Below, piece after piece: positions 3,424 through 31,464 of a DNA stretch of 43,761 nucleotides (positions within the stretch are counted from its first letter, which is position 1; every line of letters starts with the position of its first letter). Source of the DNA: a virus. The notes below the pieces were generated by a model that was given only the letters and a program-made list of their open reading frames with translations, ran no database searches and had not been told where the DNA came from. The DNA is taken from the IMG/VR virus record IMGVR_UViG_3300034631_000071, positions 1 through 43,761 of that record. One strand, 5' to 3'. Position numbers and translations under genes: made by a program.

Positions 3424-5672
3424 GCGCTCGCGCTCCAAGTGCCGGGCGTGCCGGTCGTATTGCAGACGGTCTTCGAGAGGGTGCTGGTAGGATTGTTGAA
3501 CTCGATCCGGTCACCCTGCCTGCCTGGGAAGCCCGCAGGCGGGGTGGTGTCCGCGCTGAGTTTCTCGCGAGGACTCTTGTAAGTCGTGCGATCCGGGCCG
3601 CCGCTGCTGTCTACGCCCACAGGGACAATCGACAGGCCTACCCAGCGGGTGGTGACGCCGACGCCGTAGCGGGCGCCGGTGAACAGACGTAGCGCACCCC
3701 ATCCCTCGTCGCTGCTGACCGAAATGGCCGCACCGCCCGACGCGTGCCCCTGGATGGTAGGATCGCCAATGATCGACGCCCCGACGCAGCTATTTGCGAA
3801 GGTGTCCACGGCAATTCCGAACTTGGCGCTTTCGCCGCTCTCCAGCCCGATCACGCCGCCGTTTACGGTCGTCGCGGTCGAGCGGCCGACGAAGACGTTC
3901 GCTCGGCCCATCCCTGCCCGGTTGTTGAAGCTGACCTGTGCGTCGGTGACGGTGCAGCGGAGAGGGGCCGCTTGCCCCATGCCTGCGCCGTATTCGGAAA
4001 CGAGGACGCCCTCCATGCGGCATAGCGTGGCGCGCGGTCGGACGAAATGCACATCGACCGCCCGATCGCCGGATTGATGGCCGACGTAGTGGCCGGTCGA
4101 GCCGCAATCGGTGAATGTGCCCCCGCGCTGCTGGATGACGCGGATGCCGATGCCTTGTTCTGTGACCCCGGACGGAGCCTTGCCGGTCACCCGCTCCATG
4201 CTCATGTTTGTCAACGCCAGAGGCGGCACAAGCGCGCTGTAGCCGTTCTGCTCTACAGCACGCTGCACGTTGTCGGCGAGTGTGTCCGAGTAGATCAGGT
4301 TCCCGCTGACCCCGGTGTCGGGGCAGGAGATATCGCGAAAGACTATGTTCTGGTAAGCGCGGCGCTTGTCGTCCTCCCGCGCAAACTCGAACCCTAGGTC
4401 GCCGCCCGTGTGCCGCACGGTGGCATAGGTTGTAGCCTCGACACTGAAGTCCTCGACCAGCACGTTGTAGCAGCCCGACCAGCGCGTCCCGTGCGAGCCG
4501 GTGTCCGTGCCGGTGGTAGGCTGGTTCAGCTTGCCAGCCCGAATTTTGCGCACCGTCCAATCGTGCGGATGGGTTGTGTACCCAGTGCCGTTGTCGAACG
4601 CCGTGCGGCTCCCAGCGATGTTCTCGCTGCTGATCGGCCCCACCGTGCCCCAGTCCGCATGGACGACCCCGAACATTCGGTCGTTATCTGGAACCGTGAT
4701 GTTTTCGATCAGGCCAAACGAAGAACCGCCCATGATTGCAATAGCCACCCCACCCACAGGATTCTGACCATTACCGTCGTAGGCGAGCTTATTCGTCGTT
4801 AGGGTGCCGGGGCCGATTACCTGCACGTCGGTGATGCCTTCGTCGGGGCTGAGGCTACTTGTGCTGGTCGATGCTCCGTACCGAGGGCCAATAGTCACGC
4901 AGGCATGGGCCTGCGTCTGCTGTGATGGCGAGCCACTGCTGTTGACGGTGATAGACCCGCCGTTGAGAAGGAGCCGCGACCGCGACCGTAGTCGCACACC
5001 GGGGTCATCAGAACCGGACAGGTTCAGCACCAGCGCCGCGCCATTGAGGTCGAGGGTCACGCCCTCTTTGATGATAGGCGCGGGGGTGCAATTGTAAGTA
5101 CCACGGGGTAGGCGCACCAAATCTCCCGACGTGGCGCTGTCAATCGCGGCCTGGATCATAGGATATGCATTCGGAGCCGCCCCAATGATGGGCACGATAT
5201 CGGTAGCCGGCCTGCGCACCCATGCACCGACAGACAGCGCCGTGCTGTCCGCCTTGATGATGTTCACGTCATCGGCTTGGCCGGTGTAGTTGCCGAGGGT
5301 CCAATTAAAGCGCCCGTCCGGAATGCCGGGGACGCCAACGAGGGATGCCGTCTTGCGCCCGATGTCGGATGCCTTGAACGCGGCCAGCAGGATGTAGGTG
5401 TTGTCCGACGCGCCCGGCGGGCCAACGGTTTCGGGAGGCGTGCCGATCGTGACCGCCTCCTTTGCATAGGACACACCGCCCAAGCGATAATCCAGCTGGT
5501 AGTAACCGTCCGGCGCCTCGATGGCGAAAGCTCCGAAAGCGTCCGTCACAGCGGGTTGCGGCGACACACCCGTTGCCGTCGAGCCGTCACGATTGAGCGT
5601 GAAGACCTGAATGCCTTCGACCGGGCGGCTGTAGCCGCTGTCGTCTACGACGGTGTTGCTATAGCTGGGCAT
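3420..5672 (-). CDS. Tailspike with pectin-lyase-like beta-helix
   Basis: 750 residues from the ATG at 5672; a TTG 33 bases earlier is possible but less likely. The N-terminus (about 1-120) looks like a carboxypeptidase-regulatory or Ig-like particle-binding domain. From about residue 180 (MIQAAIDSATSGDLVRLPRGTY) begins a right-handed beta-helix of the kind seen in tailspikes and pectate lyases, with repeated GGSI, GVTL and NITV coils. Such proteins bind and often cleave capsule or O-antigen. The catalytic residues cannot be named from sequence alone. It follows the short tail-adaptor genes and precedes the lysis module, the P22 gp9 position. Confidence 0.8.
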   Translation of the reverse strand: MPSYSNTVVDDSGYSRPVEGIQVFTLNRDGSTATGVSPQPAVTDAFGAFAIEAPDGYYQLDYRLGGVSYAKEAVTIGTPPETVGPPGASDNTYILLAAFKASDIGRKTASLVGVPGIPDGRFNWTLGNYTGQADDVNIIKADSTALSVGAWVRRPATDIVPIIGAAPNAYPMIQAAIDSATSGDLVRLPRGTYNCTPAPIIKEGVTLDLNGAALVLNLSGSDDPGVRLRSRSRLLLNGGSITVNSSGSPSQQTQAHACVTIGPRYGASTSTSSLSPDEGITDVQVIGPGTLTTNKLAYDGNGQNPVGGVAIAIMGGSSFGLIENITVPDNDRMFGVVHADWGTVGPISSENIAGSRTAFDNGTGYTTHPHDWTVRKIRAGKLNQPTTGTDTGSHGTRWSGCYNVLVEDFSVEATTYATVRHTGGDLGFEFAREDDKRRAYQNIVFRDISCPDTGVSGNLIYSDTLADNVQRAVEQNGYSALVPPLALTNMSMERVTGKAPSGVTEQGIGIRVIQQRGGTFTDCGSTGHYVGHQSGDRAVDVHFVRPRATLCRMEGVLVSEYGAGMGQAAPLRCTVTDAQVSFNNRAGMGRANVFVGRSTATTVNGGVIGLESGESAKFGIAVDTFANSCVGASIIGDPTIQGHASGGAAISVSSDEGWGALRLFTGARYGVGVTTRWVGLSIVPVGVDSSGGPDRTTYKSPREKLSADTTPPAGFPGRQGDRIEFNNPTSTLSKTVCNTTGTPGTWSASA

Positions 5673-6704: not shown

Positions 6705-9258
6705 TGCGCCCGCCTCCCTGCGTGGCGGAGAGGTTGATGGTGGTAGGCACGAACTCGCCGCTTTTCCCCGAACGGATGTACTCGGCGAGGAAGTCGCGAG
6801 CTTCCTGGTCGATACGGCGCGAACTGTCGGGGCCGGTGTAGTTGGTGATGCCCTGCAACGTTCGGCGCGTGACCGCCTTGTCCCGAGCCTTCGCCAGAAG
6901 ATTGCCGCCACTGTCGATCACGGTGCTGAGGCCCGGCACGACCGCAGCACCGCGAAGCGCAGCCCCACGCAGGAAGTTGGCGATCTTCGTGAACGTGCCG
7001 CTCGGGTTCGTCGTGCCAGTGATCGGGATCGTTGCTGCCCCGATGATCCGGCGCAGTTTCATCAGCCCGTTGAAATCTTCCGGCGAGAGGACTAGCCGCA
7101 GCTTGTCGATCCCAAACTTGTCGATCGCGGTGTTAAGCTTCGCCCCGCTGATGACGTCGCCGATCTGCCCGCTGCCGTGATTGACGTTCCGTGACCACGC
7201 TTGGTCGAAGATGTCGGCCAGGGTCTGGTGCTGAATGGCGCCCCACGCCTGCCGGGCGGTGGACGTGTTGCTGGAGAGCAGGAGCGTACGGACACGGCGC
7301 AGGTTGCTAACACCGTCAGGCCCGGAGCCGATCGTGCGTGCGATAGCCTGCTCGCCAGCCAGACGCGGCGTTTGGTCCGCTCCCTTCTTACTTGCAACTA
7401 GGTCTTCGATGATGTCCTTGGCATTGAACCGCTGCCGCTGCGCCTGATGAGCAGCACGAGCAGTACGGTAGGCGTTGCCGATTGCGCCCTCCTGCTGGCT
7501 GCCAGTGGTCAGCGCCTCCTCAAGGGCGTCATCGATGGCCGGTTTGATGCTTTGCGACGCGCGCGAAGGATCGCTGGCATAGAGCCGATTCACAGCCTTG
7601 CGCAGATCCTCAGCATTCGCCGCGGTAAGCTGGCGTACGGGGCCGCGGAACGACACGGAGGAGCCGTCATCCAACGTGACCCGCGTGATGCCGACTTCGT
7701 TTGTCGGTTGCGCCTCACCGATGATCCCGTATCGGGCGAGTTCCTGCGATACCGCCTTTTTCACGCCCTCCGGGACAAGTTCGTCAATCAGAACGTCCGT
7801 GGCAGCGTTGCGGATGCCCTCGGTGGGGAGTGTCAGACCCTCGCCGCCAAGCTCCTCAGCAGCGCGATACAGCGCTGAGACGCCAGCCTGCCCCTGATCG
7901 CGCAATTCGCGCACGGCAGCCTGAAGCTGCTCGCCGCGATCGGTCTTGTTGCCGGGGTCTGTGCCGAAGCGGGACCGGAAGCGATCCACCGCCCCAGCAA
8001 TCGCCTGCTGCTGCTGATTGTACCAGTCGCGGGCCTGCTGTCCCTCGCGTGCCGATGACACGCGCAGGGAATTCTCGTCATTTTGGACATTGAAGTCCTG
8101 CTCGGCCTGCCCCCGGGTGAGAGGGATGCGCTCTTCAGACGCCTCGGTGAAAACGTCGCGCGGCGGGGGCGGAGGAGCATCAGGACGGTCGAACGCCTGA
8201 CCGTTCTCCAGCCGACGCCCAATCTCATCCACGATGTTGCGGTCTGCTGCGCTGAAATCGCTTGGACGCTGCGGAACCTCGGCGCGCTCGACCGGCGCCC
8301 GTTGCTCGGGGGGCTGATAGGTGCGATTGCGGATCGCCTCGCGGTTTTCCTGAGAACCCCGGCCGCCATATCGGCCCTGGCGAGCCCGAGCGAAGGCCTG
8401 CCGCGCGTCTTCATCACTCACGCCCATCCGCAGGGCCATTTCGTGGCCTTCAGGCGTGAGATTACCAGTCGCGTCCACCGCCACTTCCGCAGGTACGCGG
8501 CTGACCAAACGGGACAGGCGCTCAGTGAGCTTCAGCCCTGCGACACCGCCAGCCAAGCCGCCCGCAAGAGACCCGACGACGCGGCCGGTCTGCCCGCCCA
8601 CAGCCTCGCCAGCATCCCCGCCGCCTTCTGCCGCTACCGCACTTGCTACACCGCCAGCGAAGTCACGCCCTGGTGTCGCGGCGACCTGACCTGCGACATA
8701 TCCGGCCATGCCAGGCAGCACCTTGGCCAAGCCAGCGGCGGCACCAGCCCCGGTCAGCGCCGAGGCTCCGCCCTCTGCGGCGGCACTGAAATACCGCTCG
8801 CTATCGGTCACTGGGCGAGGCGCACCGACCAGGTCGCGCATCGACCCGCCGATATCGGTCGTTAGGTTGGCACCGGTCAGATAGTTGATGCCAGCATTGA
8901 GCGGATTACCGATCAAGCCAAGTACGTCGCCGACACCTTCTGCCAGATCGCCCACACCGCGATAGAGGGATTGCCCAACGGTTTCGGGGGCTACTTGAGC
9001 TGCTTCCGGCGTGAATCGAACGGCGCGACCCGCTGTTCGCGCGGCAAGCGCCTGCTCCAGATTAGCCGTGGCAGGATCAATGCCTTGAGCCTTGATAAGG
9101 CTCGAAAGCTGCTCGGCTCCCTCGCCCGCATCGAAGCGTCGCTGAAGCTCGGCAAGGTACTGGTCCTTGGGCAGCGGGCCTTGCTCGGCCGCGAACTGCT
9201 CAAAGCCTGCGTATTCGTCGTCGCTCACCGTGGCGAACTGATCCCAGGGGCTAGCCAT
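6697..9258 (-). CDS. Ejection (internal virion) protein, P22 gp16-like
   Basis: 853 residues. Features in order: a short helical N-terminus, a long Gly/Ala-rich region at about 110-245 with amphipathic and hydrophobic helices able to enter membranes (LTGAGAAAGLAKVLPGMAGYVAGQVAA), then a long helical part with glutamine-rich stretches. It sits third in the gp7-gp20-gp16 ejection cluster and is close in size to gp16 (about 610) plus an extension. Such proteins leave the capsid first and form a conduit for DNA across the envelope. The assignment rests mainly on position and composition. Confidence 0.65.
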   Translation of the reverse strand: MASPWDQFATVSDDEYAGFEQFAAEQGPLPKDQYLAELQRRFDAGEGAEQLSSLIKAQGIDPATANLEQALAARTAGRAVRFTPEAAQVAPETVGQSLYRGVGDLAEGVGDVLGLIGNPLNAGINYLTGANLTTDIGGSMRDLVGAPRPVTDSERYFSAAAEGGASALTGAGAAAGLAKVLPGMAGYVAGQVAATPGRDFAGGVASAVAAEGGGDAGEAVGGQTGRVVGSLAGGLAGGVAGLKLTERLSRLVSRVPAEVAVDATGNLTPEGHEMALRMGVSDEDARQAFARARQGRYGGRGSQENREAIRNRTYQPPEQRAPVERAEVPQRPSDFSAADRNIVDEIGRRLENGQAFDRPDAPPPPPRDVFTEASEERIPLTRGQAEQDFNVQNDENSLRVSSAREGQQARDWYNQQQQAIAGAVDRFRSRFGTDPGNKTDRGEQLQAAVRELRDQGQAGVSALYRAAEELGGEGLTLPTEGIRNAATDVLIDELVPEGVKKAVSQELARYGIIGEAQPTNEVGITRVTLDDGSSVSFRGPVRQLTAANAEDLRKAVNRLYASDPSRASQSIKPAIDDALEEALTTGSQQEGAIGNAYRTARAAHQAQRQRFNAKDIIEDLVASKKGADQTPRLAGEQAIARTIGSGPDGVSNLRRVRTLLLSSNTSTARQAWGAIQHQTLADIFDQAWSRNVNHGSGQIGDVISGAKLNTAIDKFGIDKLRLVLSPEDFNGLMKLRRIIGAATIPITGTTNPSGTFTKIANFLRGAALRGAAVVPGLSTVIDSGGNLLAKARDKAVTRRTLQGITNYTGPDSSRRIDQEARDFLAEYIRSGKSGEFVPTTINLSATQGGGRND

Positions 9259-11835: not shown

Positions 11836-12347
11836 ATGCGCACCTTGAGCGCCGATCCTGTCCGATAGACCCCACCCACCGGGACCCCGCCAGCAGCTGC
11901 CGCGGCGTCATCGGCAAAGCTCCCGATGGTCGCCAGCCTGGGTGCCTGGAGCGTCTTATTGCTCAGCACTTCGGGTTCCGATCGCGTCGCTACGGTTCCG
12001 CTTTGAGGAAGCACGAGGTTCACCGGGTTCTGCGCAGTCAGGTAGACAGGGAAGCCCCCTTGCACATGGGGCACCTCGTCGCTGACGTTCAGCTTTACCT
12101 TGTCCGCCGTGATCTCGATCGAGATGCCTGGCCCCACCTCAAGAACCCGCTCGCCAGTGAGTGTGTCGTTGGGCGATAGCGTGACGAAGGTGGCGTCCTG
12201 AAGCGCACTGGTAGCCGCAACGTTCTCTGCTCCCTGTTGCTGGGTTTCGCTGACAGCTTGAGCCTGCTGCTCGAACGCTGACACGAGACGGGGATTGCCC
12301 AGCGCCTGCGCCAGAAGCTCCCGGGGAAGGGTAGGCGCCGGCGTCAT
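11829..12347 (-). CDS. Virion protein at the tail-needle position (unknown)
   Basis: 172 residues from an ATG overlapping the gp10 stop (ATGA). The N-terminus is a Gln/Glu-rich helix (about 8-40). Beta-rich repeats follow (GERVLEVGPGISIEITADKVKLNVSDEVPHV, PVYLTAQNPVNLVLPQSG), which could form a trimeric beta-stalk. In P22 the next gene after gp10 encodes the tail needle gp26; the layout of helix then beta-rich tip is compatible, but sequence similarity to gp26 is not evident. Its stop codon lies inside the 18-bp tandem motif. Confidence 0.5.
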   Translation of the reverse strand: MTPAPTLPRELLAQALGNPRLVSAFEQQAQAVSETQQQGAENVAATSALQDATFVTLSPNDTLTGERVLEVGPGISIEITADKVKLNVSDEVPHVQGGFPVYLTAQNPVNLVLPQSGTVATRSEPEVLSNKTLQAPRLATIGSFADDAAAAAGGVPVGGVYRTGSALKVRIA

Positions 12348-13732
12348 ACCGCGAGGGGCCTCACCGTGGCCTCGCAAGCAGCGAAGCCGCCGAGCGCGCG
12401 GGAATACCCGCGGAACCGCAACCCCATGTACGACCGCATTCGCGCATGGGGCCGCCACTGGATGCGCTTGGTCCGCTCGCCCAGCTTTCCGAGCGTTACT
12501 GTGCGCTCTTCGCTGAAGAACCGACCGTCGCGCGTCATCGACATGAAGACCGCGCTGCCTTCCGTTTCGTCGCCACGGCCCGACATTCCGACGAGTTCGA
12601 TGCGATCGATGATCGCGCCTTTCGCCTGATTGTAGAGCAATCCGACGTCGAACATCCATTCCGTCGTCTCGTCGAAGTGCGAGCTGGTGTCGGTCGTCAG
12701 GATCGCGAGGGCAGGGGATTCCGTGTCGCCGACGATCGTCTTGCCGTAGACGTTCGTGGCGAAGCGGGGGCGGTACGGCTTCCCCGTTCCTGACCGGGCG
12801 CGATACCAAATGCTCTCGCCAGCCGCTTCGGAGGCCTTGGCGAGGAATATCCACGTCTCGCCTTCCCCGTGCACCAACAGGCGGTACTCGTCCCTTGCTA
12901 CCCGTCGCTCACAGACGATCGCTGCGGGGTTGCTCAGGCTCGACAGCCAGTCGTCTACCGCGCGAGTGCTGATCTTGTCTGCCGTGCCCTGCCCGGCGAC
13001 ATACACACCCAGCGCGTCGCCCCGAGCGGAGCCGACGAAGGCATAGGTCTTGCCGAACAGGGTCTTCGCCGTGGCAGAGACGCACCCGAAGGGGATAGTC
13101 GCCCCTTGGATCGTGCTGAACGGAAAGCCGGTGCCGCCTACATTCTGAAGCACCTGGATCGTATGCCTGCCGATCACATGAGCCTCCCCGCGGATGCGGA
13201 TCAACCCGGTGATCGGATCAGGGTCCGCCTCCGCTGACCCGTATTTGGTCGGCTTCACCTGATAGGCGTCGTCGAGTTCCGTGACGACGACGAACTTGCC
13301 GTCTGTGGACATGGTGTAGCCATCGATCCAGATGGCATCGACGCATCGCCCGAGATCCACGTCGAGAACCTGCGTAACGGTCGTGCCGTCGCAGTAGAAC
13401 AGCTTGCCATCGGCCCGGATGATGAGGCGGTCGAAGCTGTAATCCAGCCCAACGGCATCAGTGCCCGGGATCATGCCCAAGGTGGCCGTGGTGCCGTTCG
13501 CGTCCACGCGGACTAGCCCCAAACCCATCACACGATAGCAGACGTCGTTCCAGTTGATGCCGCCGCGGTCGATGCCAGGTCCGGCGCCGAACGGGATCGT
13601 CCCGGCCGCGGTGCGAAGCTGGCCGTTGCTGATCTTGCTGTTGACGATCACCGGCTCAAGGTTGACCGGATAGGCAAGCTCAAACTCCGCCTGCTCATTC
13701 GTGGTCACGCCAGAGACGAGGGATAGCTGCAT
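12344..13732 (-). CDS. Head-completion / tail hub protein, P22 gp10-like
   Basis: 462 residues, close to the 472 of P22 gp10. The start at 13732 is chosen for the TAATG overlap with the gp4-like gene. Diagnostic stretches are IDGYTMSTDGKFVVVTELDDAYQVKPTKYGSAEADPDP, IGRHTIQVLQNVGGTGFPFSTIQGATIPFGCVS and the beta-propeller-like rest. gp10 forms the hexameric tail hub below gp4 and receives the tailspikes and needle; it also keeps packaged DNA from leaking. Confidence 0.85.
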   Translation of the reverse strand: MQLSLVSGVTTNEQAEFELAYPVNLEPVIVNSKISNGQLRTAAGTIPFGAGPGIDRGGINWNDVCYRVMGLGLVRVDANGTTATLGMIPGTDAVGLDYSFDRLIIRADGKLFYCDGTTVTQVLDVDLGRCVDAIWIDGYTMSTDGKFVVVTELDDAYQVKPTKYGSAEADPDPITGLIRIRGEAHVIGRHTIQVLQNVGGTGFPFSTIQGATIPFGCVSATAKTLFGKTYAFVGSARGDALGVYVAGQGTADKISTRAVDDWLSSLSNPAAIVCERRVARDEYRLLVHGEGETWIFLAKASEAAGESIWYRARSGTGKPYRPRFATNVYGKTIVGDTESPALAILTTDTSSHFDETTEWMFDVGLLYNQAKGAIIDRIELVGMSGRGDETEGSAVFMSMTRDGRFFSEERTVTLGKLGERTKRIQWRPHARMRSYMGLRFRGYSRALGGFAACEATVRPLAV

Positions 13733-14154
13733 TACCAGCCCCTCCACCGCCAATGACCGCGCGGATAGCCGACAGGAACCTCCACCTCTGGCACCGTTGC
13801 GACTTCAGCCTGAAGCGTCGCTAAGCTCCGCGCCATGCTCGCCCGCTGCTCGGGTTGCAGTGAGGCACCGATACCGGGTGCTATCCGTAGCGCCAGATAC
13901 TGAGCGACCGCGTGGACGTACTTGTCATCCAGGCCGCTTGGCTCCTCGGCCTGTCCCACGCCATAGACCGGCTGGACGTAGCCTAGCTTGTTCCACGGCC
14001 ATTCCAGCATCAGCGCGTTGAGCTTGCGGAGCGCGATCGTCTGCTCCTCTGGCGTGCGGTCGAACTCATAGCCAGCCAGCCCGCAATCATCGAACGCAAT
14101 CTCGATGATGTCCCGCTTCGGACGCCCAGCGGGCAGGGATACGACGATAGACAT
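13732..14154 (-). CDS. Head-to-tail connector, P22 gp4-like
   Basis: 140 residues against 166 in P22. The start region IIEIAFDDCGLAGYEFDRTPEEQTIALRKLNALMLEWPW and the later LDDKYVHAVAQYLALRIAPGIG match the pattern of gp4-type packaged-DNA stabilisers, which bind under the portal and begin tail assembly. The C-terminus (YPRGHWRWRGW) is short and aromatic. P22 gp4 has also been reported to have muralytic activity, but I see no catalytic motif here. The gene is coupled to gp10 by TAATG. Confidence 0.75.
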   Translation of the reverse strand: MSIVVSLPAGRPKRDIIEIAFDDCGLAGYEFDRTPEEQTIALRKLNALMLEWPWNKLGYVQPVYGVGQAEEPSGLDDKYVHAVAQYLALRIAPGIGASLQPEQRASMARSLATLQAEVATVPEVEVPVGYPRGHWRWRGW

Positions 14155-14219
14155 CAGGCTGCCTCTCGACTCTTGGTGAACGATGCGTCAGCCTTCCCGA
14201 AAACAGAGGGGTTTAGCTG

Positions 14220-14840
14220 ATGCGATTCGGGCTGATGGCGGCTGCGGCTGCGTGCGTGGTGGCGGTGCCGGCTCAGGCGGCGAGTATCCAACGCATAGAG
14301 TTCAGCGGGATGGGCACGATCGACGCCGTCACCGATCCAGAAGGCGCATACGCAGGCACCGATGTTGGCGATAATATCATTTTGCGCGGCTCCATTGATT
14401 TTGGCCCTTCTCTCCGCCCGAACGAGGACTACACAGGCTTCTACAGGGCTGATCTGGTGTTTTATGGCGGTAGTGCCGGATTCTGGATTACTGGAGATGG
14501 TGCATCTGCTTCGAGTGGGTCGGGCTACGACGCTGACTTCATCGCTAATTTTGTGAACGGTGCTCTTGTCAACTTTAGTCTCGCGAACAACTATGAGCCG
14601 CGCACAGGAGATCTGACGCAGGCCAAGTTCATCATCAACACCTTCGCTGGCTACGGCATCCCCGAGCGTAGAGTGGCCGGGCGGTGGTCGATCACTTCCA
14701 CCTCCTACACGTACTCCTCGCTTGAGGGTGTTGGCCCCGGCGTTCCCGAGCCTTCGACGTGGGCGCTGCTCATTGTAGGTTTCGGCGCGATCGGCGGCAT
14801 GATGCGCAGAAAAGGCATGCGGGTAGTTCACGCAAAATAG
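14220..14840 (+). CDS. Secreted PEP-CTERM (PEPxxWA) protein, moron on the opposite strand
   Basis: 206 residues. A signal peptide occupies residues 1-21 (MRFGLMAAAAACVVAVPAQA, cleavage before ASIQ). A beta-rich central domain contains many Gly, Asp and Ser. The C-terminus VPEPSTWALLIVGFGAIGG followed by MMRRKGMR is a PEPxxWA-CTERM sorting signal: PEP motif, membrane segment, basic tail. Such proteins are exported and processed by a host exosortase. It is the only plus-strand gene inside the virion cluster. The start has GAGGGG eight bases upstream, and base composition at 14370-14600 is more AT-rich than its neighbours. All this suggests a transferred cargo gene expressed from the prophage. 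Confidence 0.85.
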   Translation: MRFGLMAAAAACVVAVPAQAASIQRIEFSGMGTIDAVTDPEGAYAGTDVGDNIILRGSIDFGPSLRPNEDYTGFYRADLVFYGGSAGFWITGDGASASSGSGYDADFIANFVNGALVNFSLANNYEPRTGDLTQAKFIINTFAGYGIPERRVAGRWSITSTSYTYSSLEGVGPGVPEPSTWALLIVGFGAIGGMMRRKGMRVVHAK

Positions 14841-17800
14841 CTCGGGAACGTCGTTCGCATATTCTTGGCGAATGCAGCGAGTGGGCCGTTGAGCGTGTGC
14901 GAGCCGTCCCCAGGGAAGGTTCCCGCGCCATAAGTTCCGGTGCCATCCGTCTTGGCAATCGTTCCGTTCTCAGTGTCGTAGTAGCGCTTGCCGTAGTCCA
15001 AGAACGCAGGCCAGTTTGCCGCCGTCGCGAGGGCAGGGATGACCTTCATCGCCACATAATGGCTGAACATCGTGTTCATCCACAGGTGGCGATACTTTAC
15101 TCGCTGATCCGCCCACGTCGCCCGCGGATAACCTTCCTCCGTGACCGGGCTGCTGGTCCATTCACCGCGACCGAGAAATGCGGCGGGATACGGGTCGGTC
15201 GCGCGGTCAACGTTCGCCTGAGTAATCGTCGTGATCTGGCGCTGCTCCGCTAACCAGCCCTCCGCCTGCGACGCCGCCAGCACCCGGGCGTTGCCGGTGA
15301 CGATCGCCGCGACGGCCAGCGTGATCTTGCGGCCCTGCGACGTGCCACCAAGGCCGCTTCCCGTGCTGCGGCGCCCAGCCTCGTACATACCGGTGTACTG
15401 GATACCGATGCGGCTGAGAGCGCGCGCCAACGCCTGCTTCTGCGCGGTCGTCGTGGACGACAAGCACATCAGGAGAACGGCAGCGCCAGTCCAGTAGGCG
15501 TATTCCTTCCCGTAGTTTTCCTCGTGCGCGCGCGGCGACGTGTTGCGTGCCGTGCCGCGGTTGAGGTGCCACGTCGTATGCAGCAGCTTCAGCTTGTTGT
15601 AGACCTGGAAAAACTGCGGCGCGCCCAAGCCGGTCGGCGACAGATTCGGGAACGCCGACAGGTCAAGGCTGGCGTTATCCGCAGGAATGAACAAGTCCAC
15701 CGCCGGGAGCGCCGTGGGCGGACGGAACAGCAAAGTTCCGCTGGCCGGCAGCGTCGGCACCACCACTAGGTCAGAGACGGACGCAGCGGTGAACTGAGCG
15801 TCCCGTCGCACCACATCCATGGAACGCTGCTTCGTCAGGATGCCTTGCGTGATCGTTACCGGCGTTCCGGTCCTGCCGGGGTCGATGTTGAGCGCGGCGC
15901 TGTACGGCAATTGGCTACTGTCATACTGCGTTGCCCAACTGTCGAACGGCTGCTGCGAGCCATCATAGGGCGCGTTGCCCGATGGCGCGATATCTACGGC
16001 GGCTTGGCTACCGACGTTCAGGCCCATGCCATCGGTCCACTGCATCCCCGTGGTACCGGCCGCATACGGGGGATCGGCTGCGCTATCCCCAGGATAGTTG
16101 CGGTCCCGCTGGCGGGCTGGGGGAGACGCCGTGATGCCGACTCCGCTGGGGTTCGCGACCATCCAGCCGCCGTCCTCCAGCTGCATCGCCGTGAGCGCCG
16201 AAGCAGGCGTCCACGTGATATCGTTCTCGGTCATGGAAGTAACGCTGCGCTGCGTCGGGTCGCCGATGACGATCGTGTTGCTGCTGAAATCGCTGGCTGC
16301 GTAGGTGCCCGCAACCTTCGTGAGCGTAACCGCGGTTTCCAACGTGCCCTTGTTGACCAGCCCCGCGTCGCGCGCTGCCACGTCGCCGTGGAAGAACAGC
16401 TTGGGCGTCAGCGTTACCGGATTGCCGCTCATGTCGGTGAGGGTCACGGTCCCGGTGGTCGGGTTCAGGTTCTCGATGTTGAAGGCCGCGCGGTTGGCCG
16501 GAAGGTCGAAGTCGATCTTCGGACATTCCGCCGACGACCCCCACCACATCCAGTCGAACCCGGTGCGCTCGCTGATGGCGAGACTTGCGGTTGCCGTCTG
16601 CACGCCGAAAAAGCGGTTGTCAGGAATGACCACGGCCGTTCCCATTGTTTGTGAAACCTGCGGCTCGCCATCCAGCCATCCGCGAACACGGTCGCCCACA
16701 GCAGTCCCGTGACCGTTCGTCATATTCATCTGCACGATGGCTTGCTGGAACTTGCCGACCTGCGCCACTCCCAACGTGGTGCTGTAGGAATTGTTGTTCG
16801 CGCGGAACGAGACGTTACCCGTCGTCGTGTTGATCCGCCATTCGGGGGGGATGGACGTTCCATCGCTCGCCAGCAGGCCAAAGCGCGAACGCGATGTGGC
16901 GGGAATGTCGCGGACGGAGAAGAACGCGACGGCGATGACCTGATCGACCGTTCCCGCAGGGCGCGACGGCTGAAGATTGGCGTTCGCCGAGCGCGCGATG
17001 GCGTTGGTGGAGGTGACAGGGAAATAGTCCTGCGTCGTGGTGATCGACGGGAACGGGCCGGAGACTTGCCTCGTGTAGCCCGTCCGGTCGTGGACCAGGG
17101 AATATGTGCCCGTCGTGTCGCCCAGCACGCCAGGGCCGTTGACCCCGACGACGATGGCGGTGCCGTCCTCATTCACATCAAGGAAGCCAGCGTCGTATGC
17201 TGCGCCTGTCATCGCGACCAAGCTATCAGCGAACGAGCCGCTGACCGGCGCCACGACATCGCCGGGCTGCATCGTCGCCTTTCGGCTAGTCGTGCCCACG
17301 GTCAGTGCCCCCGCGGGGGTGGACGCGGCAGCAGGAGTGCCACTGACCTGCGCCGACGCGGCACTATCCCCCACCGCGTTCGTCGCAATTCCCTTGGAGT
17401 AGTAGGTCGTCCCGTTCGTCAGGCCGGTGTCCACGTAGGGGAACGTCGGGTTAGTCGCGATCAGGTTGCCCGAGCTAGGCGGGAACCCGCTCGTTGTGCT
17501 GCGATACAGCTTGCGAGAGGTGATCGCAGACCCGCCGTTGGCACCATCGGTAAAGGTGATGCTGTTCTGCGCAGCGCCGGGGGTCGCAGCCAGCGTAGGC
17601 GCAGCCGGTGCCGTCGCAGCGGCAGTCACCGTCACCGCCGCGCTGGTCGTTACGGTTGAGCCACCGGGTCCAGTGGCCGTCACTTCCAGAACGAGTGAGC
17701 CAGCCGATGACGGCGAGACGGTCGTTCCGGTACCTATCTGAGTACCCGATAGCAGCCAGCGCCGGGCATATGAGTTGGCGTTCGACGCCACCCCGTCACT

Positions 17801-18292
17801 GGCAGTGAAGGTCTGCCCGGTCGTTCCGCTCGTGGGGCTAATCGAGGGCTGCGTCGTGAAGACGGGAGCGGGGATGGCCGAGACGGTCACTCCCGTCGAG
17901 GTCGCCGTCACTGTGCCGCCAGGGCCGGTGAGCGTCACACGAGAAGTCAGCGTGCCCGCCGCAGCCGAAACGTAGCTCGCCCCGTTGGCGCCGCTGATCG
18001 CAGTCCCGTTCAAGAGCCACTGTATCGCCGCCGACGTGGCATTGGCCGCGACATAGGCGACGGTGAAGGACTGCCCCACCTGACCGCTACCGGGGCTGAC
18101 GACGGGCGCGGACGTGAAGGAGGGCAGGGGCGCCGGAGTAGGCGTTCCGCCCTCAAGGAGCGAGATGCGGTTGGCGAACGACGCCTGCAATGTCTCGATC
18201 GCAGCGAACCGGCTCTCCAGCGACGCGACACGCTTTGCCAGCTGGCCGATCTGGCCCTCATAGTCGGGCTTGCCGAGGTGGTTAATGCTCAT
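14828..18292 (-). CDS. Giant receptor-binding protein with Ig/FN3 repeats and alpha-toroid C-terminus
   Basis: 1154 residues. Order: coiled coil (about 8-48, LAKRVASLESRFAAIETLQASFANRISLLEG), Pro-rich linker, two Ig-like repeats (about 55-225), a fibronectin type III-like domain (about 230-320, SRKLYRSTTSG, YVDTGLTNGTTYY), a LamG-like or sandwich region (about 440-560), and a helical C-terminus (about 900-1154). In that last part GGTSQGRKITLAVAAIVTGN recalls alpha/alpha-toroid polysaccharide lyases. It is probably a trimeric fibre that binds or cuts host polysaccharide; enzyme activity is inference. Its last 13 bases overlap the convergent PEP-CTERM gene. Confidence 0.65.
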   Translation of the reverse strand: MSINHLGKPDYEGQIGQLAKRVASLESRFAAIETLQASFANRISLLEGGTPTPAPLPSFTSAPVVSPGSGQVGQSFTVAYVAANATSAAIQWLLNGTAISGANGASYVSAAAGTLTSRVTLTGPGGTVTATSTGVTVSAIPAPVFTTQPSISPTSGTTGQTFTASDGVASNANSYARRWLLSGTQIGTGTTVSPSSAGSLVLEVTATGPGGSTVTTSAAVTVTAAATAPAAPTLAATPGAAQNSITFTDGANGGSAITSRKLYRSTTSGFPPSSGNLIATNPTFPYVDTGLTNGTTYYSKGIATNAVGDSAASAQVSGTPAAASTPAGALTVGTTSRKATMQPGDVVAPVSGSFADSLVAMTGAAYDAGFLDVNEDGTAIVVGVNGPGVLGDTTGTYSLVHDRTGYTRQVSGPFPSITTTQDYFPVTSTNAIARSANANLQPSRPAGTVDQVIAVAFFSVRDIPATSRSRFGLLASDGTSIPPEWRINTTTGNVSFRANNNSYSTTLGVAQVGKFQQAIVQMNMTNGHGTAVGDRVRGWLDGEPQVSQTMGTAVVIPDNRFFGVQTATASLAISERTGFDWMWWGSSAECPKIDFDLPANRAAFNIENLNPTTGTVTLTDMSGNPVTLTPKLFFHGDVAARDAGLVNKGTLETAVTLTKVAGTYAASDFSSNTIVIGDPTQRSVTSMTENDITWTPASALTAMQLEDGGWMVANPSGVGITASPPARQRDRNYPGDSAADPPYAAGTTGMQWTDGMGLNVGSQAAVDIAPSGNAPYDGSQQPFDSWATQYDSSQLPYSAALNIDPGRTGTPVTITQGILTKQRSMDVVRRDAQFTAASVSDLVVVPTLPASGTLLFRPPTALPAVDLFIPADNASLDLSAFPNLSPTGLGAPQFFQVYNKLKLLHTTWHLNRGTARNTSPRAHEENYGKEYAYWTGAAVLLMCLSSTTTAQKQALARALSRIGIQYTGMYEAGRRSTGSGLGGTSQGRKITLAVAAIVTGNARVLAASQAEGWLAEQRQITTITQANVDRATDPYPAAFLGRGEWTSSPVTEEGYPRATWADQRVKYRHLWMNTMFSHYVAMKVIPALATAANWPAFLDYGKRYYDTENGTIAKTDGTGTYGAGTFPGDGSHTLNGPLAAFAKNMRTTFPSYFA

Positions 18293-19878
18293 ACTGCAAG
18301 CCCCACGCCGACCGCCGCTGCGATTTCAGCCTCCGCGATCTGCACTTCGGTCGTCAGGCTGCCGACGTTGAACAGCCGGAACTCGTCCAGCGCGCCGGTG
18401 ACCGAATTGACGTAACCGTTGTTTGCCACGGCGTAGACCGCGCCGACACTAAACTCCTCCAGCGTCATGGCAGGAGCGTCGCAAGCGGCGTTCACCGCGA
18501 TGTTCACGCCGTTCACGCGAAGCGTAGCCGTCTGACCCGAGAAGATCCACGTCACGACGTACCACTGATCCGCCGGGAACGCCCCGGCGAGGCCAGGGGT
18601 CGCCACCTGTGTGTTGTTCTGCGTGCGAGAGTACAGCCCGTCTGCGCCAACGTAGCCCGCCCGAATATAGTCGGAGGTAGTGCTCTTGCGCGCCCAGCCG
18701 AAAAACGCCCGCGATCCGCTGTCGGCCGTGCCCCTGCGGATGGCGGCAACGATCGTGATCGGGTTGTCATCGCCGGTCGCCGTCGCAACGAACTTGGCCG
18801 AAGCAGAGGTGAGGTATTTACTCCCACCCGCGAAGTTCAGGACCGGCCGACCAGTGAGGCTGTCCGTCGCAAGCACCGGTGCTCCGGCGGGTGCGATCAA
18901 GGCCACACCAGGCTGCTTGTCGGCATCTTGATAGCGGCTGACTGCGGAGCCGGTCGTAGAGGGCGTGGTGCCACCGGTATCGGAGAAGGTGCTTCCCGGT
19001 ACGCTCGGACTGAAGCGAGCAATGAGCGACGCCGGGCGCCCGGGTCGCAAGAGCGCCCAGGTGCGGGCGCCGCGCTCGACCGTGCTGGCCGCGCTGAAAT
19101 GGACATTGTCTGATCCGGTCGCGAGACTGTCGCTGCTGAACAGCTGAGTGTTCGGCGTGCGGTCATAGAACGCGGCCTGAGCGGCACGGACGGTCGCGCG
19201 CTGCGTCCAAATAGCGTCCTCCAGCCGCGCGACGACAAACGTGGCGGTGGAGCCGCCCAGGATGTTCGCGCGAAACCAGGTGTGGAAGGCGTCGAGCGCG
19301 GTGCCGTAAGTCGCAGCTGCAGTCGCGTTGTTGCCGTCGTTCTGCCCCTGATCCCATAGAGCGCCGAGGTAGTTGATCGTCCGGCTTCCAAGTGCGGCGA
19401 TGGCCGCGTCGCGGTCGCCCTTCAGAACTGACGCCCACTCATTCGGGAGCGTGGGGTCCCAAATGCCGCGGTCCACCGATCGCGCCGCCTCTTGTAGAGC
19501 GCTGGTGGGGCGACCGAGCTTCACGATGCAGAGCGGGCGACTGTCGCCGGAAGCGGCGTAGGCACGCGCGATCTCTGCCTCCGGTCCGAACGACGCCGCA
19601 CCGCGGGTCATGCCGTTGCGGGGCGCTGAGTTGAGACCCGTCTGATACTGCTCGAACGCGGGCGGAGTAAGGTCGCTGTTCCAGATGAACACGTTGGCCG
19701 GGGCTGCCGCTACCGAAGCGGGCACAGGCTCGCTGTTGGTGTTGCTGGTGACAGCCTGCGATTGGCCGGCGAGGAAGAACATATTAACCGCCCCGGCAGG
19801 GACAGGATCAACTATGGTCACAGCCCCCGCGCCAATCGCCCCCGGCGCCAGAACCTGAAGGCCGGAAAGCCCGATCAT
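18289..19878 (-). CDS. SGNH-type carbohydrate esterase with LamG-like domain
   Basis: 529 residues from an ATG overlapping the upstream stop (ATGA, 19875-19878). FFLAGQSQA (Ser40) is the nucleophile block of the sialate-O-acetylesterase/SGNH family. LWDQGQND (about 175-181) is the oxyanion block, and DNVH (257-260) supplies the Asp-x-x-His. Residues about 290-529 form a concanavalin-like LamG sandwich (VVTWIFSGQTATLRVNGVNI). Phage tail esterases of this class strip acetyl groups from capsule or O-antigen. It is coupled to the giant fibre gene that follows. Confidence 0.75.
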   Translation of the reverse strand: MIGLSGLQVLAPGAIGAGAVTIVDPVPAGAVNMFFLAGQSQAVTSNTNSEPVPASVAAAPANVFIWNSDLTPPAFEQYQTGLNSAPRNGMTRGAASFGPEAEIARAYAASGDSRPLCIVKLGRPTSALQEAARSVDRGIWDPTLPNEWASVLKGDRDAAIAALGSRTINYLGALWDQGQNDGNNATAAATYGTALDAFHTWFRANILGGSTATFVVARLEDAIWTQRATVRAAQAAFYDRTPNTQLFSSDSLATGSDNVHFSAASTVERGARTWALLRPGRPASLIARFSPSVPGSTFSDTGGTTPSTTGSAVSRYQDADKQPGVALIAPAGAPVLATDSLTGRPVLNFAGGSKYLTSASAKFVATATGDDNPITIVAAIRRGTADSGSRAFFGWARKSTTSDYIRAGYVGADGLYSRTQNNTQVATPGLAGAFPADQWYVVTWIFSGQTATLRVNGVNIAVNAACDAPAMTLEEFSVGAVYAVANNGYVNSVTGALDEFRLFNVGSLTTEVQIAEAEIAAAVGVGLAV

Positions 19879-20318: not shown

Positions 20319-20861
20319 CTAGGAGCTTGCTACGTCGCTGCGAGCGACGGCGATGACAGAAATGGTCGCGCCAGCCGCGCTTCCCCCGAAGACGTTGTAC
20401 CCCGTCAGCTGGGCGAAGACCGTGTTGACGCCGGAAACGACGCCGGAAACGAGCGTGAGCAATCCGGACAGCGGGTTGATCGTCGGAAGCATCTGCGCGC
20501 GCCGCCCTTGGATCGTTACGCCAGTGTACTGGCCTTGCGCGTTCGTCACCCAAGACAGACCGCGGAGGACTAGCGGCTGGCTGCCTGTCGCAGCGTCCGT
20601 CTCGGTGAGATTGAGGCCCGGCTTGTTGGTGAAGGCGCGGGTGAAGGCGATTGCCGCCTCGCCGTTGCTGTCCAGCGTCGCGTAGGTCGTGCTGGTCAGC
20701 CGCGGGTGCTGGTGGTCCACCAGCGCATATTCCTGCGTCTGCGACCCCGTTGCGGCGCCGGTCTTCTCGCTCAACGGAGGCGTCGAAGCCGGGCGCGGCA
20801 TCATGCCAGCGACCAACGTCTGGATTTCAGCGAGGGTAGCGCCTCCTGCCAGTTCCGCCAC
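20319..20861 (-). CDS. Tail-fibre-like virion protein with DHQHP motif
   Basis: 180 residues, GTG start with GGAG upstream. Residues about 45-55 read EYALVDHQHPRL, a His-rich D-H-x-H motif common in phage tail and collar proteins, where it can bind metal along a trimer axis. Beta-rich repeats and a C-terminal Ser/Gly/Ala sandwich (TGYNVFGGSAAGATISVIAVAR) follow. Likely part of the surface-directed insert between coat and gp4. Partner and receptor are unknown. Confidence 0.55.
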   Translation of the reverse strand: MAELAGGATLAEIQTLVAGMMPRPASTPPLSEKTGAATGSQTQEYALVDHQHPRLTSTTYATLDSNGEAAIAFTRAFTNKPGLNLTETDAATGSQPLVLRGLSWVTNAQGQYTGVTIQGRRAQMLPTINPLSGLLTLVSGVVSGVNTVFAQLTGYNVFGGSAAGATISVIAVARSDVASS

Positions 20862-29176: not shown

Positions 29177-29917
29177 TCAGTGCGCCATTCCGCTCGCTAT
29201 TCCGGCCGCGAGCTGGCCGAACCCTCGCGGGCCAGCGTGACCGTTCGGGCGGGGAGGGGGATCAACCGTGGCGATGCCGCGGAGGTGCGGGGCAGCCTGA
29301 AGCTTGGCGAGGTAGGCGGCACGCGCCTCGTCATCCATCGGCTTGGCGGTGGTCGCCGCGTCAGCCGGGCCGCTCATCTCCAGCGCCTTCATGAAATTCT
29401 CGGGGCTTTTCAGCATCCAGCCGATGTTGGCCCGCCAGCCGCGGTCGTTCTTGCCGCAGTGAAACGGGGACCGGCCAAGGTTGGCGATGGCCCGCAGCAC
29501 GGCATCCTCGCCGTGTTCCTTCACCCGGAGCGCCAGCAGCTTCCGCCGGTTGGCGTCGAGCGCATTGGCCCTCGTCGCCCCAGCCGCAGCCGGTCCGTCG
29601 TTCCAAGCCGAAACCGCTTTTTCCGAAAATGGGGGGCAGATCGCTTTAGCGATCTCAGGGGTTACGGGGGGGTTAGAATATATATCATTGGGGGGGGCGG
29701 CTTCGGCGTAACGTTCTGTAACGTCATGTAACGCGTTACCTGCGTTACCATCCTTGCCCTTGCCCCGGTGCTTGCGGACGCGCGCGGCGGTATCAGCGCG
29801 CTTCTTTGCCGCCTTTTCCTCCCGCACGGCTGCGTCAGCTTCCACCACAGCGAGAAGCATCTCAGGCGTAGCCCCCTGTGCGACGAGGGCGCGAAAAATG
29901 GCCGGATCTATGCTCAT
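29177..29917 (-). CDS. Replication initiator / replisome organiser-like protein
   Basis: 246 residues. The N-terminal part (about 1-60) is a charged helix ending in a basic block RKHRGKGKD. A linker (about 60-115) is encoded by the iteron-like cluster. The C-terminal part, LLALRVKEHGEDAVLRAIANLGRSPFHCGKNDRGWRANIGWMLKSPENFMKALE, is a pattern typical of phage replication proteins that load helicase at the origin. The arrangement with the origin inside its own gene resembles lambda O. It starts in an ATGA overlap with the methyltransferase stop. Confidence 0.65.
   Translation of the reverse strand: MSIDPAIFRALVAQGATPEMLLAVVEADAAVREEKAAKKRADTAARVRKHRGKGKDGNAGNALHDVTERYAEAAPPNDIYSNPPVTPEIAKAICPPFSEKAVSAWNDGPAAAGATRANALDANRRKLLALRVKEHGEDAVLRAIANLGRSPFHCGKNDRGWRANIGWMLKSPENFMKALEMSGPADAATTAKPMDDEARAAYLAKLQAAPHLRGIATVDPPPRPNGHAGPRGFGQLAAGIASGMAH
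29660..29748. other. ori: Candidate replication origin: iterons plus AT-rich segment
   Basis: GTAACG occurs at 29708, 29718 and 29728, an exact 10-base period, and its inverse CGTTAC at 29734 and 29743. A further GTTACG lies near 29660. Between them is TTAGAATATATATCATT (29673-29689), the most AT-rich stretch nearby, flanked by G runs of 7 and 8. Iterons plus an easily melted segment inside an initiator gene is the lambda-type origin plan. No experimental support is available here. Confidence 0.6.
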
Positions 29918-31464
29918 GCGGCGATCTCCAGCGAGGTCAGGGCCTCCACCGCCACGATCCGCTGACCGATCCAGGCCATCACGGGAACCGCCATCGAGTT
30001 CCCCAGCGCCTTGTAGCGGGGGCCATCAGCCATCGGCTTTCCGCGATGGGGAACCAGGGTGTAATCGTCAGGGAAGCCTTGGAGCCGTTCGCACTCGCGG
30101 GGTGTCAGGCGGCGGACCGCGCTGCCATACTGGACCGAGGCATGGCCACCACCGTTCGTGTGGCTGTCCTTGTGGCCCATGCTGCGTAGGGTCGACATGA
30201 CCTCGCCAACCCCAAAACCGGCTTGGCCTGATGCCTTGCAATCGAAGGCGATAGCTTGGGCGTGATGGCGGGCTTCAAGTGTGTAAGCGCAATCCGCCTG
30301 ATAGCCCTTGCCCTGAGGACCAGCCTTCAGGTTCTGGCTAACAGCCCTTTCCTGGATGGCGAACGCTACCGCAGGGGGGTGCATTCCAGCCGCCAGAGGA
30401 TGGCAGGGATCGCCAGCTTTCGGGTTGCTGTAATTCGCGGCGCTTGTGATCTGCGTCGTATCAAATGGCACCGGCACCAGAGGCGTACCCCGCCCAGTCC
30501 CATCCTCAGAAGCATCAAATCCCTCGCCGCGCAGAGCGTGCGTGATGAAAGTCTCGACTTCGAAATCGCACTTCTGCCCCTTTGCTACGAGGCAGGCTGC
30601 AACATCCACGCTACCAGCGGTGTTGCCCCCGCCAAAGGCGACAGCGTTCGGGCGTTTGGCCCGTAAAGCCGGTGAGGCTTGCTCGACAATCCCTAGGCCG
30701 CTTCGCTGCGCGGCGGTGCCGGCCGCTCCCTCGCCGCTCCGATCAAGGCAGTCGCTGTCAATGCCCCATGCAGAGCCGGAGGCAGAGTTTTGCCCCGCTT
30801 CTCGGCTCGGCGCAGGATGCCCTGACAGGCTGTGGCGCTCAAAAAGTACCGCTGCGGCACGTCGCCAGTCTCCAAGATATCCGACAGCGAAGATACGACG
30901 GCGCCGCTGTGGTACTCCGGCAAACTGAGCGTCGAGCACTCGGTAGGCGACACCGTACCCGAGCTCTTGAAGTCCGGCCAAGAAACATCCGAGCGCATGA
31001 CTTTCGTCAGCGTCATATTCGTCCTCGACCACGATCTCTTCCCCGTCTTCGGGTCCGTTGTCGCTGTCCAAGTCGATTTGCGGCGGACATGGATCGGGAG
31101 CGTCGTGGGATAGGCTGGAAAAAACGCCGGGGACGTTCTCCCAAACGACCCAGCGGGCGCGTGTTCGAGCAGCAAGCAGGAGAAACTGGAGCGAAAGGTT
31201 GCCACGGTCGCCGCCCAATCCCGCTCGGAGGCCGGCGACGGAGAAGTCCTGACAGGGGGTTCCTCCGACAAGAAGGTCAATTGGCCCATACTCATCGCCC
31301 TTGATGGTGGTGAAGTCGCCGTGGAGCGGCGTGTCGGGATAGTGGTGTGAAAGGACGGCGCGGGGCGCGGCCTCAATCTCGCTGTACGCCGCAGCCTCCC
31401 AGCCCAGCGGCTTCCATGCGACCGTGCTGGCGCTGATGCCGGCGCAGACGTCGAGGTAGCGCAT
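29914..31464 (-). CDS. Orphan C5-cytosine DNA methyltransferase
   Basis: 516 residues. Motif I is DVCAGISAST (5-14), motif IV GGTPCQDFS with catalytic Cys71, motif VI WENVPG (108-113), motif VIII QRRRRIF (186-192). A long variable recognition region runs to about 440, then motif IX RRLTPRECERLQGFP and motif X ALGNSMAVPV. It transfers methyl from SAM to cytosine C5. No restriction partner is visible, so self-protection against host restriction or regulation is the likely role. The target sequence cannot be read from the protein. Confidence 0.92.
   Translation of the reverse strand: MRYLDVCAGISASTVAWKPLGWEAAAYSEIEAAPRAVLSHHYPDTPLHGDFTTIKGDEYGPIDLLVGGTPCQDFSVAGLRAGLGGDRGNLSLQFLLLAARTRARWVVWENVPGVFSSLSHDAPDPCPPQIDLDSDNGPEDGEEIVVEDEYDADESHALGCFLAGLQELGYGVAYRVLDAQFAGVPQRRRRIFAVGYLGDWRRAAAVLFERHSLSGHPAPSREAGQNSASGSAWGIDSDCLDRSGEGAAGTAAQRSGLGIVEQASPALRAKRPNAVAFGGGNTAGSVDVAACLVAKGQKCDFEVETFITHALRGEGFDASEDGTGRGTPLVPVPFDTTQITSAANYSNPKAGDPCHPLAAGMHPPAVAFAIQERAVSQNLKAGPQGKGYQADCAYTLEARHHAQAIAFDCKASGQAGFGVGEVMSTLRSMGHKDSHTNGGGHASVQYGSAVRRLTPRECERLQGFPDDYTLVPHRGKPMADGPRYKALGNSMAVPVMAWIGQRIVAVEALTSLEIAA

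Follow-up and report, generated by a model that had tools for sequence, protein, structure and literature searches.

The window (the whole 43,761-nt virus record IMGVR_UViG_3300034631_000071) carries, at positions 14220-14840 (+), a gene for a predicted secreted protein with a PEPxxWA-CTERM sorting tail, hereafter the PEP gene, and the evidence supports a real gene of the phage moron type within the virion gene cluster. The gene belongs to a variable cassette that also holds a fibre-like gene and an acetylesterase/lectin-like gene, a grouping that goes beyond the preliminary description of this DNA. As the best explanation, we tentatively propose, at a little short of an even chance, that the PEP gene is a lysogenic-conversion gene encoding an exosortase substrate and that the resulting change in envelope glycan would affect phage adsorption.

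The PEP gene and its neighbourhood in a P22-like phage

By its gene families, the window belongs to the P22-like podoviruses and is temperate: it encodes portal, coat and terminase proteins and others resembling gp4, gp10 and ejection proteins, together with an S24-type repressor and an integrase. The host is probably a sphingomonad, as suggested by the nearest relatives, Sphingopyxis phage VSN-002 and prophages of Sphingomonadaceae. The integrase stop codon coincides with the last base of the record (43761), which looks like the trimming of a provirus to the end of a gene, and positions 29914-31464 encode a 516-aa protein of phage DNA methyltransferase families (phrog_116, 2.2e-81). A codon-based caller trained on the window's genes called 65 genes in the window. 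From 1589 to 34369 the PEP gene was the sole + strand call, with 15 opposite-strand genes in a row on one side and 26 on the other. The features of the region are as follows.

12344-13753 (-): P22 gp10-like head closure protein (phrog_578, 1.5e-73), the anchor for finding relatives
13732-14154 (-): P22 gp4-like tail accessory factor (PF11650, 9.1e-6; phrog_637, 1e-15), downstream of the PEP gene in the late direction
14165 to about 21350: variable receptor-binding cassette of about 7 kb, bounded by DNA similarity breakpoints against L413 and L023
14206-14211 (+): putative ribosome-binding site GAGGGG, 8 nt 5' of the ATG, read directly from the sequence
14220-14840 (+): PEPxxWA-CTERM protein gene, 206 aa, with family matches and a positive codon score on the + strand
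14220-14279 (+): predicted signal peptide MRFGLMAAAAACVVAVPAQA, by eye, with hydropathy above 1.6 over residues 1-23
14280-14741 (+): body of the PEP protein, residues 21-174, GC 56.5%, with weak relatives or none
14742-14813 (+): PEPxxWA-CTERM sorting tail VPEPSTWALLIVGFGAIGGMMRRK, NF035944 match
14828-14840: convergent 3'-end overlap of 13 bp between the PEP gene and the fibre-like gene
14828-18292 (-): 1154-aa fibre-like protein, a probable receptor-binding protein
18289-19878 (-): SASA acetylesterase with a laminin-G/ConA-like domain (PF03629, 7.5e-15; PF13385, 1.7e-9), a probable tail-associated glycan enzyme
20319-20861 (-): 180-aa protein within the variable region, common to L346 (51%) and L023 (32%)

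Residues 175-198 of the 206-aa PEP protein matched the PEPxxWA-CTERM family NF035944 at 49.7 bits against an NCBIfam cut-off of 35, where membership means PEPxxWA, a hydrophobic stretch and a basic C-terminal end scoring above the curated cut-off. This was the single NF035944 match in the 43.8-kb record; PF07589 was matched as well, at 28.5 bits against a Pfam cut-off of 20.7, and no PHROG family matched the protein. At the N-terminus, an AxA site closes the predicted leader (MRFGLMAAAAACVVAVPAQA|A, by eye and from hydropathy). The preliminary description of a PEPxxWA-CTERM tail is thus borne out, and its signal peptide is a probable one; borne out too are its statements that the gene lies against the late genes (gp4 and the fibre-like neighbour are both on the - strand), has a putative ribosome site of its own and is more AT-rich. 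Its GC content is 58.5% against a mean of 64.6%, the second lowest among the 35 called genes of at least 120 aa, and within that set the gene also has the lowest GC3 and a near-lowest codon score per residue. A 225-aa antisense ORF, 14154-14831 (-), spans the PEP gene and was passed over by the codon-based caller. Consensus scans for a sigma-70-like promoter and an intrinsic terminator of the PEP gene found none.

The starts of the PEP and gp4 genes are 65 bp apart. Because both of its neighbours are read in the late direction, late RNA reaching gp4 and gp10 should cross the PEP gene antisense. No PHROG or Pfam family matched the 1154-aa neighbour, and its putative fibre role is suggested by its position, its length and a segment common to the fibre-like proteins of L109 and L079. 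The acetylesterase/lectin-like protein is 529 aa long in the codon-based call or 551 aa as the longest ORF, and its probable association with the tail suggests a surface-glycan receptor.

A variable cassette with a probable receptor-binding gene

DNA similarity to the relatives L023 and L413 stops at 14163 and 14164, respectively, some ten bases upstream of the gp4 start, and is regained at about 21347 (L023) and 21429 (L413). L413 is the closest relative fetched (gp10 71%, gp4 70%, coat 70%), and at the position of the cassette it is without the PEP gene, the fibre, the SASA protein, a 143-aa gene and the 180-aa gene. Absence from otherwise syntenic relatives, by which a moron is recognised, was found for the PEP gene in both L413 and L023. 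Its absence from L413, together with the breakpoints in the two relatives, makes the PEP gene and the sequence 5' of it one edge of the variable cassette. Gene calling gave no PEP gene among the best 80 relatives (the 80 include a number of short ones, and minus-strand genes were inspected in 32), and a family-model search of 23 relatives found none.

A remoter P22-like phage, L346, shares with the window the 180-aa protein as well as gp10 (40%) and gp4 (33%), and carries a PEPxxWA gene in the matching slot, flanked by gp4 and a fibre-like gene. Both the fibre and the PEP body of L346 are unlike their counterparts in the window. Joint exchange of fibre and PEP gene would explain what is seen in this slot, although two phages are no proof of it. 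A third P22-like contig (L403, the contig of L079) bears a PEP gene of another type at another position.

Probable sorting route and body of the PEP protein

Exosortases of TIGR02602 occur in Sphingomonadaceae in a form of about 530 aa, for which the one protein scanned scored above the XrtA cut-off, and in a form of about 300 aa, for which five of five scanned scored above that of XrtV. XrtV was found in 73 of 254 Sphingomonadaceae genomes, and its presence followed that of the PEPxxWA tail: 69 genomes had both, 7 the tail only, 4 XrtV only and 174 neither, on the assumption that the 254 genomes in which XrtV was counted come first among the 397 in which the tail was counted. Four of nine genomes were positive for NF035944, with 8 to 46 matches each. 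Relatives of the window are present as prophages in genome G286, which has the tail system, and in G255, G280 and G083, which do not have it. One genome, G344, has 27 PEPxxWA-CTERM matches and no TIGR02602 match, possibly from an incomplete assembly. XrtV had no match in any of 51 virus records, among them the window, so a host enzyme would be used, and the PEP product is likely sorted by a host exosortase. That the protein relies on a host sorting enzyme had been proposed before, and the way in which the tag type tracks XrtV in Sphingomonadaceae agrees with it.

Searched against 397 Sphingomonadaceae genomes, residues 1-172 of the PEP protein gave weak hits (26 of the 397 at E<=0.1) and no close host copy of the body. 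The best hit, at 2.1e-4, was a 163-aa protein of L319 that is without the tail and by eye has the look of a small outer-membrane barrel. An iterative body search among 348 called PEP proteins yielded no further relatives. The bodies of phage PEP proteins are mutually unrelated, and the body type of L347 was found in none of the 397 genomes at E<=1e-6. Among GenBank phage proteins there was no match to the PEP protein (P0001), nor to a 33-aa tail consensus, a query of little power. AlphaFold2, run on the single sequence, returned a mean pLDDT of 32.

Recurrence in other viruses

In IMG/VR, at least 119 stretches matched a DNA pattern written for PEPxxWA tails; among the matches listed, 115 of 119 loci have the motif at the end of an ORF. 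Fifty of the listed records were taken, of which 48 scored above the cut-off and 44 had one match. From 40 viral regions fetched, statistics were drawn on the 39 PEP genes with at least 1500 bp on the 3' side. Convergence within 250 bp on a neighbour of at least 450 aa was seen for 14 of 39 viral and 10 of 104 host PEP genes (p=4e-4), and convergence on a neighbour of at least 690 aa for 13 of 39 and 1 of 104, respectively (p=1e-7), both length thresholds having been set post hoc with the arrangement already seen. With relatives collapsed (L347, L353 and L354 are mutually related), the latter figure was 11/37 (p=1e-6). L345 also fits, its PEP gene converging with a 1290-aa frame, and is uncounted because the caller missed that frame.

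A complete run of a stricter tail pattern gave 64 stretches, 15 of them new, and 13 of these 15 loci (L474 and L484 were omitted for lack of room) held 15 PEP genes. Two of the 15 fit the convergent arrangement (p=0.04), or 1 of 14 once a relative of an earlier case is removed (p=0.22). Many of the new loci carry another PEP family (ATLQIEVFDNG...), so the convergent arrangement is not general to phage PEP genes.

Nesting among opposite-strand genes was found for 13 of 38 viral PEP genes, compared to 13 of 514 other viral genes. Host PEP genes are slightly often nested too (22/112 vs 76/576, p=0.054), and viral PEP genes show no clear excess over them (p=0.056). Convergent ends overlap in 13 of 25 PEP pairs and in 7 of 20 other viral convergent pairs, again with no clear excess for PEP pairs (p=0.20).

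The preliminary description had called for a survey, and the one made here found PEP genes again and again in phages of different types, frequently by the 3' end of the final long tail gene. They occur in podo-, sipho- and myovirus-like contexts, the virion genes nearby being baseplate and endolysin in L347, tail sheath and baseplate in L378, tail proteins in L348 and L359, and P22-like connectors in L346. Three of ten long convergent neighbours had weak PHROG tail matches (best 9e-7) and one had sub-threshold Pfam repeat-domain hits; for the rest, the word fibre is used as a probable assignment.

Several further observations were made among these loci. Two virus records (L109/L345 and L126/L354) have the IMG genome number 2931039395 in common in their names, and in each of them a PEP gene converges on a long gene of fibre-like type. 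A second PEPxxWA type (L031, L041, L116, L123 and L130; also L079 and L131) has a membrane-anchor-like N-terminus MKTLLTYKGIKYLCIAA... with a basic stretch, a Gly/Pro-rich linker and the PEPxxWA tail, and its gene faces the lysis cassette. L041, L116, L123 and L130 encode an endolysin-like protein 57-62% identical to that at 2267-2824 in the window. The recurrent PEP-CTERM family ATLQIEVFDNG.LIDN.TGITTGAASLTANDANF is present in many viral contigs (L033, L034, L052, L055, L471, L476 and others), and in L471 and L476 it lies beside a 221-aa gene resembling a lysis gene. L473 has two PEP-CTERM genes, 4398-4700 and 8199-8741, both + within a - strand run.

Discussion

A gene for a PEPxxWA-tailed protein forms one edge of the receptor-binding cassette and is read against the late genes, and lysogenic conversion would proceed from there as follows. 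In the lysogen, with the late genes silent, the PEP gene would be transcribed from a promoter of its own at or close to 14155-14219; in the lytic cycle, late RNA on its way to gp4 and gp10 would run antisense through the gene and suppress its expression. From what is known of the family and from co-occurrence, the product would be exported by Sec, host XrtV would recognise PEPxxWA and cleave the tail, and the cleaved body would be released or anchored in the envelope or polysaccharide layer. In the least certain step, the body may mask or change the glycan bound by phages with such a fibre and acetylesterase, in which case the lysogen would adsorb fewer such phages, its own progeny included.

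Masking of the glycan would explain why the PEP gene sits at the edge of a swapped receptor-binding cassette. An effect on adsorption is favoured by this cassette-edge position in two P22-like phages, by the many other phage copies that abut the last long tail gene, by the cassette enzyme, which points to an acetylated surface glycan, and by a description, in the part of the source consulted, of PEP-CTERM proteins as tied to exopolysaccharide (PMC12642866). A role in superinfection exclusion is proposed from position only and is the least certain part of the proposal. Against lysogenic conversion, mutually unrelated bodies are equally expected of a mere passenger gene, and the fibre end may be simply a tolerated insertion site.

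The gene could also be surface or biofilm cargo: a protein made by the lysogen that would tether or organise exopolysaccharide and aid aggregation or attachment, with adsorption unaffected and a fitter lysogen as the phage's gain. We regard this as somewhat unlikely. The evidence from the gene itself (tail, codon use and co-occurrence with XrtV) is identical for it, and PEP-CTERM proteins are reported, in the portions of the sources consulted, to be necessary for floc formation (PMC9012009; Gao et al. 2018 via PMC12642866). By itself, however, such a benefit does not account for the many copies placed next to the last long tail gene, a position that a permissive insertion site would explain.

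Insertion at a tolerant site is the core of another account, in which a host PEP-CTERM gene was recently captured and is kept at the end of the fibre gene with no selected role. The low GC and GC3 of the PEP gene, the many such genes in hosts that bear the system and the relatives that are without it all suit a passenger. However, the reading frame is uninterrupted and retains both the predicted signal and the tail, phages of several types repeat the arrangement around bodies that are unrelated, and no close copy was found in the 397 Sphingomonadaceae genomes; we consider a passenger quite improbable.

A part for the PEP protein in the lytic cycle, in lysis or in the virion, is suggested by PEP genes that lie beside lysis genes in several other phages (L347, L348), but we consider it very unlikely, as the gene opposes the late operon, carries a predicted export signal and in the window has tail genes on both sides, with the endolysin-like gene (2267-2824) a long way off. 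That 14220-14840 is no gene at all, and is an antisense open frame over a non-coding gap of the late operon, has next to no likelihood, for although the 225-aa frame is likewise open on the - strand, the predicted signal peptide, the putative ribosome-binding site, the 49.7-bit curated tail near the extreme C-terminus and the phage-like codon use all lie on the + strand.

Lysogenic conversion through the host exosortase can be stated more broadly. Phages of exosortase-bearing alphaproteobacteria would repeatedly pair a receptor-binding gene with a convergent gene for an exosortase-sorted surface protein and exchange the two as one cassette; the lysogen would always display a protein matched to its own phage's receptor, and late transcription through the fibre would switch the protein off before progeny release. 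In this full form the idea is doubtful, and we put it forward as speculation. If lysogenic conversion is the correct reading, phages exploit the host exosortase pathway for it, one of the many uncharacterised PEP-CTERM proteins gains a role that can be tested at the bench, and gene order becomes a route to pairs of receptor and masking protein. Similarly tagged proteins encoded at the same place in several unrelated viruses suggest remodelling of the host cell surface.

Comparison with known systems

Our search of the full-text literature, judged by titles and the beginnings of abstracts, found no paper describing lysogenic conversion by a phage via exosortase. In a virus community, according to the part of the report consulted, one family among the horizontally acquired cellular proteins has a domain that putatively interacts with exosortase (PMC11003980). 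P22-like enteric phages are described, in the sections consulted, as having a variable "ant moron" group in the late operon next to the tailspike gene, with the superinfection exclusion gene sieA; at other places in their morphogenetic clusters, the phages studied had no morons (PMC2629481, PMC10883804). The window resembles them in having a variable insert in a P22-like late operon beside a probable receptor-binding gene. The ant moron of P22, however, lies between genes 16 and 9, whereas the PEP gene lies between the fibre and gp4, and SieA of P22 acts on DNA entry, whereas the window protein is a predicted secreted exosortase substrate.

Another parallel is Cor of phages phi80 and N15, which, in the excerpt consulted, alters the envelope and inactivates the receptor FhuA (PMC11436027). 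In both cases a phage gene is associated with an envelope alteration, proposed here from the sequence; Cor acts on a known receptor, whereas the receptor here is a putative surface glycan. To our knowledge, Cor is without a PEP-CTERM tail. Compared with host PEPxxWA-CTERM proteins and their enzyme XrtV (NF035944, NF035943), the window's gene is unlike them in being phage-borne and nested against late genes and in encoding a body without a close host copy, but its protein carries the same sorting tail, above the family cut-off.
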